From IMG/VR virus record IMGVR_UViG_3300021197_000511, positions 1 through 21,648 of that record: DNA of 21,648 bases, one strand, 5' to 3'. The notes beneath the pieces are model-generated. The model did no database searches and had not been told where the DNA came from. It saw only the letters and a program-made list of their open reading frames with translations. Origin of the DNA: a virus. The position numbers and the translations under genes are program-made. Each line of letters opens with the position of its first letter. The first letter of the stretch is position 1. Of the stretch, positions 3 to 2,505 are shown one piece after another.

Positions 3-650
3 GATTATAGAGCCGTTTCAGACGAGCAATTCAGAATGCTAAATACCTACGGGGCATTCACGAGAGTGCCGCCAGAGGCGATTGCAGGGCTTCAGAGGCT
101 ATCGTTTCAAGGGTTTGAGGCTTTAGCTAATCAGCAGCTTGATACTCTGGCGAATGGTGTATATCAAGCCACGCTCACTGGCAGGGGTAAGGCTGACTTC
201 ATAAATGACTTGAGAGGTAGCATCAATGGAATCTATCAAGCAAGCGATCAAGAGGAGATTCGCCAGCTTGTTGAAGTGGCTCAAGCAGCAACTGGAGCCA
301 GACAACAGGAAGCGATTGATCGACTCCACTCAGTTTATAGCGCTGACAGGCTTGGCAATAATCTCAGGCGCTATGCGTCACTGTATGCAACTGATTCGCT
401 CAATCAGTACTCGGCGACGTTAACTGTCACAACGGCAAACGAACAAGGCATCGACCGTTTCGAGTACTACGGCGATCTGATAACCGATAGCCGACAGTTC
501 TGCCGTGACCATGTCGATAAGGTATATACCCGCGACGAGATCGAAAAAATATGGGAGGGTGAGTGGGCAGGCAAGGCTCCGGGCGACCCTTTTATCGTGA
601 GAGGGGGTTACAACTGCCGCCATCAATGGCTACCCATCGTGAGGGAATAA
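3..650 (+). CDS. Phage head morphogenesis protein, MuF-like, 5' partial
   Basis: The reading frame is open to the left edge, so the gene begins outside the window. The ATG at 36 is probably internal, because this family usually carries a longer N-terminal helical part. The C-terminal third has the MuF-type minihead signature: a GDLITDSRQFCRDH segment, then VYTRDEI, a W-x-G stretch and a closing GGYNCRHQWLPI with the conserved Asn-Cys-Arg. In phages such as SPP1 and Mu this protein is a minor capsid component bound near the portal and needed for head assembly or early DNA entry. It is followed after 1 nt by the next gene, and its place just before scaffold and capsid genes fits. The family call is from motif recognition and position; the missing N-terminus prevents a length check. 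Confidence 0.8.
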   Translation, partial: DYRAVSDEQFRMLNTYGAFTRVPPEAIAGLQRLSFQGFEALANQQLDTLANGVYQATLTGRGKADFINDLRGSINGIYQASDQEEIRQLVEVAQAATGARQQEAIDRLHSVYSADRLGNNLRRYASLYATDSLNQYSATLTVTTANEQGIDRFEYYGDLITDSRQFCRDHVDKVYTRDEIEKIWEGEWAGKAPGDPFIVRGGYNCRHQWLPIVRE

Positions 651-651
651 C

Positions 652-906
652 ATGAGCAAAGAGCTAGACCGAGCAAGGAACCTGACCGCGAGGCGACCGA
701 TACCACCGGCAATTCGTCAACTACTGGAGCCACTGGCAGCGGCTGCGCCCGAAGAAGAAAAGCCAGACTTTGATGAGCTATATGCAATTGTGGATGAGTT
801 GCTGCCATTACCTAAAAAAACGAGGAGCAAGAAAGATGCCGAGCCATTACGGACACAGCAAGAACAAGAAGAAAAAAAAGACGATGAACAAGCCCAAGAG
901 GACTAA
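652..906 (+). CDS. Small charged protein between MuF-like and scaffold genes
   Basis: This encodes 84 residues of unknown function. The N-terminal 40 residues are mixed with an Ala/Pro-rich stretch, and the C-terminal 25 residues are almost entirely Glu, Asp, Gln and Lys, so this tail is probably disordered. It starts 1 nt after the upstream stop and is presumably translationally coupled. A run of eight A residues at 872-879 encodes two Lys codons. Its 3' part overlaps, in another frame, a 25-residue basic ORF with its own good ribosome binding site. Possible roles are an accessory head protein or a scaffold helper, but nothing in the sequence settles this. Confidence 0.6.
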   Translation: MSKELDRARNLTARRPIPPAIRQLLEPLAAAAPEEEKPDFDELYAIVDELLPLPKKTRSKKDAEPLRTQQEQEEKKDDEQAQED

Positions 907-913
907 AAAGTAA
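836..913 (+). CDS. Nested lysine-rich 25-residue peptide
   Basis: An ATG at 836 opens a 25-codon frame, out of register with the enclosing 84-residue gene, ending at TAA 911-913. It is preceded by GAGGAG at 822-827, eight bases upstream, which is a near-ideal Shine-Dalgarno sequence. The peptide begins MPSHYGHSKN and has about 10 Lys, 1 Arg and 2 His in 25 residues. Very short basic proteins beginning with a similar MP-x-HYG pattern are, to my recollection, found beside capsid genes of aquatic phages, which raises confidence. A nucleic-acid or capsid-interior binding role is only inferred from charge. The overlap could also be a coincidence of an A/G-rich stretch. Confidence 0.5.
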   Translation: MPSHYGHSKNKKKKKTMNKPKRTKK

Positions 914-976: not shown

Positions 977-1642
977 ATGAGCGATGAAATCATGGAAGAA
1001 AGTGCTGAGACTGAACCGGCACAAGAAATAGTTCAGGAAGCTAAGACGTTTACTCAAGACGAACTTGATCGCATCGTTGCGGATCGAGTCGCTAGGGAAA
1101 GGCGCAAGCTAGACAAGAAGCTAGAAGGTATCGACATCGAGGAAGCTCGCCAGATCATGCTTGAGCGTGAGCAGGCGCAGATTGAACGCCAAAAGGAAAA
1201 AGGCGAGTTCGAGCAGGTACTAAAGCAGACTGTCGAAAAGAAGGATCAGCAGATTGCTGCAATGCAAGCGGCCCTAGAAAGCACCAAGATTGACGGTGCT
1301 TTGTTGTCGGCGGCAAGCAGGCACAATGCTGTAGATTCTGAACAGGTATCGCAGTTGCTGCGGAATCGTGTAAGACTATCGGACGATGGTTCGGTTGAAG
1401 TCCTAGACGATAGCGGAGCGATCAGATACAACGACAAAGCCGCTCCCCTCTCAGTTGATGAGTTGGTGGGTGACTTTCTTACGGCGAACCCGCATTTCGT
1501 CAGAGCCTCCGCAGGAGGTGCTGGCACACAAGGGATGGCTGGTGGCTCCACGCAGAAGCCTATATCTGTGGCTGACATGGTTGCTAATTGGAAGGACGGC
1601 GGTGCCGAGGCATTCCGCGCCTACAAGAAAGCAAACAAATAA
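977..1642 (+). CDS. Capsid scaffolding protein
   Basis: This is a 221-residue acidic, highly helical protein. It has an acidic N-terminus (residues 1-25), a QDELDRIVADRVARERRK segment typical of phage scaffolds annotated as minor structural GP20/DUF4355-like, a long predicted coiled coil (about residues 45-110), and a Gly-rich linker before a short basic helix ending KKANK. A basic C-terminal helix is the usual coat-binding element of scaffolds. Such proteins line the procapsid interior and direct correct shell assembly. It directly precedes the major capsid gene and follows a strong promoter. The start has AGAGG seven bases upstream. No protease motif is visible, so a separate maturation protease would have to lie outside the window or be unnecessary. 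Confidence 0.85.
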   Translation: MSDEIMEESAETEPAQEIVQEAKTFTQDELDRIVADRVARERRKLDKKLEGIDIEEARQIMLEREQAQIERQKEKGEFEQVLKQTVEKKDQQIAAMQAALESTKIDGALLSAASRHNAVDSEQVSQLLRNRVRLSDDGSVEVLDDSGAIRYNDKAAPLSVDELVGDFLTANPHFVRASAGGAGTQGMAGGSTQKPISVADMVANWKDGGAEAFRAYKKANK

Positions 1643-1671: not shown

Positions 1672-2505
1672 ATGGCTGCTACAACGAGCACAACCCTTGA
1701 CGACCTGTTTGCGAATATCATCGCACAGGCACGATTCACTGCTGAAGAAGAGTCCCTAATGATGGGCCTCGTTACTATGTACAACATCGGCGACGAAGCT
1801 GGTAAGACGATTCAGGTGCCTAAGTACCCTGCAATCACTGCCGCTGACCTGACCGAAGGCACCGACATGAGCAGCACGACTGTCTCAACTTCTTCTGTCT
1901 CAATCACCGTGGGTGAGGTGGGCGCACAAGTAGTTCTGACCGACTTGGCTGCAATGGGTGCTGGCAACCCTGCTGAAGAGTTGGGTACTGTACTGGGTAA
2001 CGCTATCGCTACGAAGATGGACTCAGACCTGATCGCATTGTTTGACGGATTCAGCACTGCCTTGGGCGCTGCTGGTCAAGAGATCACTGTGGCTGATCTG
2101 TTCAAGGCTGCTGCTACCTTGCGTAACAACAAGGCACAAGGCGAGATTTTCGCGGTTGTTAACCCTTTCCAAGCGTACCAACTGAAAGCTAACTTAACCA
2201 ATACCTTCGCCAACCCAAATGGTGGTGACGCGCAGAACACGGCTATGGTTAACTCTTACGTTGGCACCATCGCTGGGATCGACGTTTACGAGTCTGCAAA
2301 CGTAACCGTGGATGGTAATGATGACGCGAAAGGCGCTGTCTTCTCACGCGAGGCTCTGGCTATCGCTATGAAGCGCGACTTCCAAATCGAAGCGCAACGT
2401 GACGCATCACTTCGTGCCTTCGAGCTTAACGCTACCGCCATCTATGGTGTGGGCGAGCTTGATGACACTTATGGTGTTGAGATGCTGTTCGACGCAGCAA
2501 TCTAA
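1672..2505 (+). CDS. Major capsid protein
   Basis: This is a 277-residue protein that I identify as the coat protein from position (directly after scaffold, before neck genes), expression context (strong promoter upstream, strong terminator directly downstream) and composition. It is rich in Ala, Thr, Val and Gly with few Cys or Trp. It contains stretches typical of HK97-fold coats: an N-terminal helical arm, a KTIQVPKYP segment leading into a beta-rich region, a central FAVVNPFQAYQL segment, and a C-terminal FELNATAIYGVGELDDTYGVEM. No delta domain precedes it, consistent with a separately encoded scaffold. The start has AGGA eight bases upstream. An HK97 fold is expected for a tailed phage but is not proven here. 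Confidence 0.85.
   Translation: MAATTSTTLDDLFANIIAQARFTAEEESLMMGLVTMYNIGDEAGKTIQVPKYPAITAADLTEGTDMSSTTVSTSSVSITVGEVGAQVVLTDLAAMGAGNPAEELGTVLGNAIATKMDSDLIALFDGFSTALGAAGQEITVADLFKAAATLRNNKAQGEIFAVVNPFQAYQLKANLTNTFANPNGGDAQNTAMVNSYVGTIAGIDVYESANVTVDGNDDAKGAVFSREALAIAMKRDFQIEAQRDASLRAFELNATAIYGVGELDDTYGVEMLFDAAI

Follow-up and report, generated by a model that had tools for sequence, protein, structure and literature searches.

Conservation of a 25-codon lysine-rich open reading frame in the head region of environmental phages

A micro-gene between two head genes

The window analyzed is a virus record of 21,648 bases, in which a lysine-rich micro-gene lies among head genes. The features of this region were as follows.

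3..650, plus strand: upstream head gene, 5' truncated by the window, with a C-terminal GGYNCRHQW motif; PHROG matches weak
652..906, plus strand: 84-aa ORF, the last 71 nt of which (836-906) overlap the micro-gene
822..827, plus strand: Shine–Dalgarno (SD) sequence GAGGAG, read directly, with an 8-nt spacer to ATG 836; equivalent sites in relatives
836..913, plus strand: micro-gene MPSHYGHSKNKKKKKTMNKPKRTKK, read directly and translated, 25 residues
924..950, plus strand: promoter-like TTGACA-N15-TATAAT with TG before the -10, read directly, between micro-gene and scaffold
977..1642, plus strand: capsid scaffold gene (phrog_206, E 8e-20)
1672..2505, plus strand: major capsid protein (phrog_267, E 1e-27), used as the bait for relatives

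From its position and its C-terminal motif, which also occurs in HTVC111P gp33, the gene at 3-650 would be MuF-like. The 84-aa ORF had no match among Pfam or PHROG profiles. The scaffold is acidic, with a net charge of -11 overall and -7 in its first 25 residues. The promoter-like site is conserved in sister phages and its short spacer notwithstanding, may drive the scaffold and capsid genes as a host-type promoter; because that spacer is 15 nt, the site was not reported by a simple promoter scan.

The micro-gene had been picked out in a first-pass annotation, the position, peptide, start and frame of which proved exact to the base. The frame runs from ATG 836 to the stop TAA at 911-913, is shifted +1 relative to the 84-aa ORF, and ends 7 nt beyond it, as had been described, and the GAGGAG reported eight bases 5' of the ATG is present at that spacing. 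The peptide, put at about 10 lysines, contains exactly 10 Lys, together with 1 Arg and 2 His, among its 25 residues; its net charge is +11 with His excluded (K+R 44%). The neighboring gene had correctly been called a scaffold. Across the whole window, this was the sole SD-led K/R-rich micro-ORF.

Conservation and selection in relatives

Relatives were recruited with the capsid protein alone, giving 80 IMG/VR loci, and K/R-rich ATG ORFs upstream of the capsid were then sought with no sequence pattern imposed. The micro-ORF was found in 67 of the 67 relatives covering the place; IMG/VR contigs are fragments, and relatives not covering it were left out of this count. Such retention strongly supports the earlier suggestion of a real nested gene overlooked through length cut-offs. 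The heads recovered in this pattern-free way were mostly MPxHxG, with a variant MPKMNPSKYG. An intact 84-aa-type ORF lay over the micro-ORF in 49 sequences, window included; in the remainder this ORF was absent, ran off the contig, or went unresolved by the script. Loss of the start, ribosome-binding site or frame in relatives retaining the enclosing gene had been named as evidence that would speak against the micro-ORF; start and frame were kept in 49 of 49, and the ribosome-binding site was weaker in some, the strong GAGGAG of the window being replaced in many overlapping relatives by AGGAA or AGGTA types. In eight relatives (L047-L051, L056, L057, and L060), the 84-aa gene was absent and the micro-ORF stood alone. 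There, the upstream head gene ends 1 nt before the micro-ATG, and the micro-gene has its own SD, the consensus GGAGG.

The comparison of synonymous rates in the overlap that had been proposed as a check favored the micro-ORF. Counted per clade against the consensus rather than a tree, with an assumed transition weight and in small numbers, 27 substitutions were found in the overlap in clades without indels. The micro-ORF peptide was unaltered by 17 of these (6.3 expected, p = 1.2e-5), the 84-aa protein by 1 (7.3 expected). Non-overlapping copies of the micro-gene, counted in the same way, gave 12 silent (S) to 6 non-silent (N) changes (25% S expected, p = 2.3e-4). Upstream of the overlap, the 84-aa gene had the normal excess of silent changes that indicates purifying selection, whereas in its overlapping tail no purifying selection was visible in its own frame. 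Both genes are therefore real, with selection in the shared stretch following the micro-gene.

The order of arrival of the two genes was examined with a capsid tree of 63 sequences, sister lineage included. The presence of the 84-aa gene needs two changes on this tree, most readily explained by a single gain and a single loss around a resident micro-gene, the loss coinciding with the non-overlapping clade (support 100/100). The micro-gene occurs throughout the window lineage and in most covered sister-lineage loci. A sharp contrast with the acidic tail of the 84-aa protein had been remarked upon, and it is real, the first 61 aa having a net charge of +1 and the last 23 aa, which overlap, -7; it follows largely from the frame relation, because AAG AAG (Lys-Lys) reads as GAA (Glu) in the 84-aa frame. 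Polymorphisms in the overlap exchange Glu for Lys or the reverse in the 84-aa protein and leave the lysines of the micro-protein unchanged. Given the one gain and one loss, the lysine-codon relation and these polymorphisms, the tail is best read as an overprint: most of the acidic C terminus is probably the out-of-frame reading of micro-gene lysine codons, and the 84-aa gene, a lineage-specific neighbor overprinting the micro-gene, probably came later. The description of the micro-ORF as nested inside a gene thus stands as regards the overlap but not as regards host and guest, since by the selection counts and the capsid tree the micro-gene is the constant element.

The MPSHYG and MPKMNPSKYG heads interleave on the capsid tree; it appears that one N-terminal head has replaced another several times while the lysine tail persisted. 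The head MPKMNPSKYGKSLKQ replaces MPSHYG in nine loci (L018, L021, L025, L026, L052, and L077-L080) at no fewer than three separate places of the tree, which points to recurrent exchange of the micro-gene or its region. A search for other genes with the MNPSKYGKSLKQ head returned this micro-gene and unrelated matches only.

The interval between head gene and scaffold is occupied in the sister capsid lineage (L351-L430) by free-standing genes 14-16 codons long, MPYHKGKKKKKKSK and MPYHKKDKRKKKRKSR among them; most have good SDs, and they lie 30-53 nt before the scaffold. Substitutions were 9 S : 3 N in the 14-codon gene (p = 4e-4) and 13 S : 11 N in the 16-codon group (p = 0.003). Kinship with the micro-gene is putative, these genes having too few residues to tell strict orthologues from mere occupants of the same slot. 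Three sister-lineage contigs have a different cassette there, MPQGKGTYGSKxGRP plus lysines; in a few others the place is taken by another small gene or left empty, and at least two (L412 and L430) seem to be without a micro-gene in the slot before the scaffold. A further small family (MPKKLEQELRKMCSKKGWSKERCDRYVYGTLRKTGWKPGK and look-alikes) was noted in the pre-scaffold slot of L375 and L415 and of two further sister-lineage loci, in the latter as a 40-aa ORF.

HTVC111P-type pelagiphages, which have a related capsid, lacked the micro-gene in the same slot (0 of 70). This absence and that in L412 and L430 indicate that the micro-gene is not essential to this capsid type; in HTVC111P-type phages it is either dispensable or replaced. 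Four loci of that type (L082, L083, L084, and L086) have a short gene after the capsid gene with a lysine-rich C-terminal stretch, for example KKKRKTRKKK, which is possibly a functional substitute and is offered as a lead.

It might still be supposed that the micro-ORF is a chance open frame, a by-product of the lysine- and glutamate-rich 84-aa tail that is not translated or not functional. The two frames are indeed linked through lysine codons, and short ORFs are common: when the 84-aa gene was recoded synonymously at random 20,000 times with the codon usage of the window, ORFs of 25 aa or more arose 19,467 times. Those that were led by an SD, began with ATG, reached 25 codons, and had 10 or more Lys numbered 3. 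Conservation in all 67 covered relatives is, in our assessment, far stronger evidence against chance than this recoding test. A chance frame would also hardly persist where the 84-aa gene is absent, be biased toward silent change in its own frame and not in the other, have stand-alone genes of 14-16 codons in the same slot of a sister lineage, or begin with an MPxHYG start conserved across otherwise different contigs, and we regard it as scarcely credible. Judged by comparative sequence evidence, 836-913 is an independent gene: it is real and conserved, selection acts in its own frame, and it survives where the enclosing gene is missing.

The MPxHYG-lysine family and its neighborhoods

The family was defined by an ATG start reading MP-x-H-Y-G, an ORF no longer than 90 aa that carries a K/R-rich tail, and restriction to phages; the window peptide belongs to it by its MPSHYG start, its 25 aa, and its K+R content of 44%. 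Scanning IMG/VR DNA for MPxHYG followed by lysines returned at least 119 viral stretches. When an SD plus MPxHYG was sought with lysines not required, 127 of 132 ORFs were K/R-rich and 130 of 132 were no longer than 90 aa, among the matches listed. The lysine scan had already recovered roughly a third of these loci; among the listed loci new to the SD-based scan, 79 of 83 were K/R-rich. A scrambled control, MPxYHG, gave 38 stretches, with 11 of 36 K/R-rich, and those 11 (MPGYHG...KKKK) look like family variants. The family total is at least 194 members, at least 155 of them distinct, with a median length of 29 aa and a median net charge of +14. The tails are mostly lysine and have few hydrophobic residues (median 15%).

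The lysine pattern was also run against 84,980 bacterial and archaeal genomes, where it found 21 stretches and no members; most of the stretches were one conserved protein of ~340 aa, and the rest were chance frames or other proteins. On the viral versus cellular scans, then, the family is phage-restricted. Searched against Pfam and PHROG, the window peptide, variants of it, and longer members had no usable match, the one hit (E 0.36) being at chance level; the sensitivity of these searches is limited by composition and length. Several longer members were compared by tblastn with 50,697 isolate phage records and had no match or matched in an EF-hand-like part only; no cultured phage with an MPxHYG head was found by this route. 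The literature searched contained nothing specific on the MPxHYG motif or on lysine-rich phage microproteins. These tiny phage proteins form a large family, which apparently lacks a name and is missed by ordinary annotation.

Some members carry an additional segment in common with other small proteins of the head region: QKxLPxxL...KKK, as in HTVC022P gp30, or an EF-hand-like DxxKDGK, as in a P-SCSP2 gene between scaffold and capsid. Longer members (L150, L163, L198, L210, L254, and others; L350:2989-3114) have the EF-hand-like loop LDMDKDGKLTKKDFAML and resemble that small P-SCSP2 gene.

Genomic neighborhoods were sampled by testing twenty nearby proteins one by one, together with pooled scans; many of the twenty belong to the head or to packaging. 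The micro-gene sits between terminase and portal in L228, directly downstream of terminase in L269, L252, and L093, after head-assembly or scaffold-like proteins in L104, L211, L186, and L245, after a head morphogenesis gene in L095, and before a scaffold in L138. Non-head neighbors were RNase E-like (L090), endolysin-like (L248), and major tail (L145) proteins. Terminase, head assembly, scaffold, and capsid led the pooled scans, with holin, endolysin, and ferredoxin as minorities. Because some members lie beside RNase E-like, endolysin-like, holin, tail, or ferredoxin genes, the head association is common but not universal.

Proposed role and comparison with known systems

The explanation we favor, held with slightly more confidence than doubt, is an independent translated head-assembly micro-gene, the product of which combines a docking motif with a polycationic tail. 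The peptide would be translated and produced together with the head proteins. Its 25 residues, probably disordered, would comprise the MPxHYG recognition motif and the lysine tail, with the Met before Pro expected to be removed. The Pro-x-His-Tyr-Gly motif would dock on a head-assembly partner (scaffold, portal, or the inner face of the capsid), and the lysine tail would bind a polyanion, either acidic scaffold or incoming DNA, and so aid procapsid assembly or packaging. Since the scaffold is itself acidic, scaffold binding is as plausible as DNA binding. A DNA-condensing or procapsid-interior role, as first suggested, is compatible with the composition and with the recurrent head-module position.

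That position, and the charge of +11 here against a family median of +14, would also suit a peptide packaged in many copies in the head, where it neutralizes or condenses the genome. By our own estimate, however, a few hundred copies would neutralize a small part of a 30-40-kb genome, and binding to acidic scaffold fits equally well. Charge counting thus makes bulk DNA condensation unlikely, with local DNA binding still allowed, and we consider the packaged condenser rather unlikely as a whole. Strong positive charge, along with the holin or endolysin genes that adjoin some members, could instead suggest a host-directed or lysis-helping peptide, acting by disruptin-like membrane disruption or by binding host nucleic acid or ribosomes. 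The window copy, by contrast, adjoins head genes; the median length is 29 aa, with relatives as small as 14; and tails of mostly lysine, so poor in hydrophobic residues, are not expected to form an amphipathic membrane-active helix. Such a role seems improbable.

Polylysine chains can slow ribosomes, and in both lineages the distance from the micro-gene to the scaffold, which follows shortly downstream, is fairly constant. The micro-gene might accordingly be read as a regulatory leader, in which translating the lysine run (by slow or stalling decoding, or by re-initiation) tunes scaffold expression and the peptide is inert. This is a shade more improbable still: a promoter-like sequence intervenes before the scaffold, members in other phages lie before portals, after terminases, or after scaffold-like genes with no downstream gene in common, the N-terminal motif is conserved although the tail alone would matter, and purifying selection acts on the amino acids.

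Beyond the window, the head-assembly explanation may extend to a widespread class of microproteins, down to 14 residues, in which interchangeable docking motifs are joined to a polylysine tail; such proteins would hold procapsid components and nucleic acid together as an electrostatic clamp. We put this generalization forward tentatively, at somewhat less than even confidence. Gene-length cut-offs would explain why the class has escaped notice, and in this lineage a younger gene would even have been written over it. What might have been a one-off curiosity becomes a testable gene family, apparently unnamed, in many environmental phage contigs, and relatives of 14 codons are very short for a conserved protein gene. 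The overlap is also a clear case in which the hidden ORF is the selected, and probably the older, one. If the head role is true, this would suggest that tailed phages bring a lysine polycation of their own to assembly or packaging, for which host polyamines and motor force usually receive the credit. Standard annotation overlooks a recurrent head-region component, cultured phages included.

The closest parallel in cultured phages, those of the marine T7-like group, is the type of HTVC022P gp30 (annotated "hypothetical protein"), which has an MPxGKGTYGSKxGRP head and a lysine tail, and of which the copy in the Roseobacter phage CRP-171 is unannotated. Both of these lie between scaffold and capsid; in S-SBP1, the analogue is one gene after the capsid assembly gene, and in P-SCSP1k, a tblastn match places it just after the capsid gene. 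Like the micro-gene, this type is short, starts with MP, and has a Gly- and Tyr-containing head followed by a lysine tail. It differs in having GKGTYG rather than xHYG as its N-terminal motif, and common ancestry is not demonstrated. Membership of the window peptide in the GKGTYGSKxGRP type was considered and rejected, the head being different and the slot and lysine tail alone being shared. The unannotated S-SBP1 (Synechococcus phage) microgene (L514:4501-4584) directly follows a short "high light inducible protein" gene. In phage DSL-LC06, an unannotated SD-led 15-codon ORF, MKYKKKKPGRGGKKY (L085:4974-5021), is a positional analogue upstream of the scaffold; directly adjoining it is a lysine-tailed hypothetical protein of 40 aa (L085:5021-5143).

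Assignment as a disruptin-like lysis peptide was likewise rejected, on the head-module position and on the lysine tails with few hydrophobic residues. Adenovirus mu/pX and the T4 internal proteins are small, strongly basic, and thought to be internal DNA-associated components. They are similar to the window peptide in smallness and basicity; they are processed or packaged by known routes and are not known to be related to it in sequence. Phage genes of fewer than 100 codons that standard annotation misses have been recognized through conservation and synonymous variation, according to the review PMC11323111, which cites Fremin et al. (2022, Cell Rep 39:110984), and CodingDiv (PMC10356776) uses the same principle. 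The micro-gene resembles those small phage genes in being shorter than 100 codons, in having been missed by standard annotation, and in being recognizable by its conservation and silent variation.
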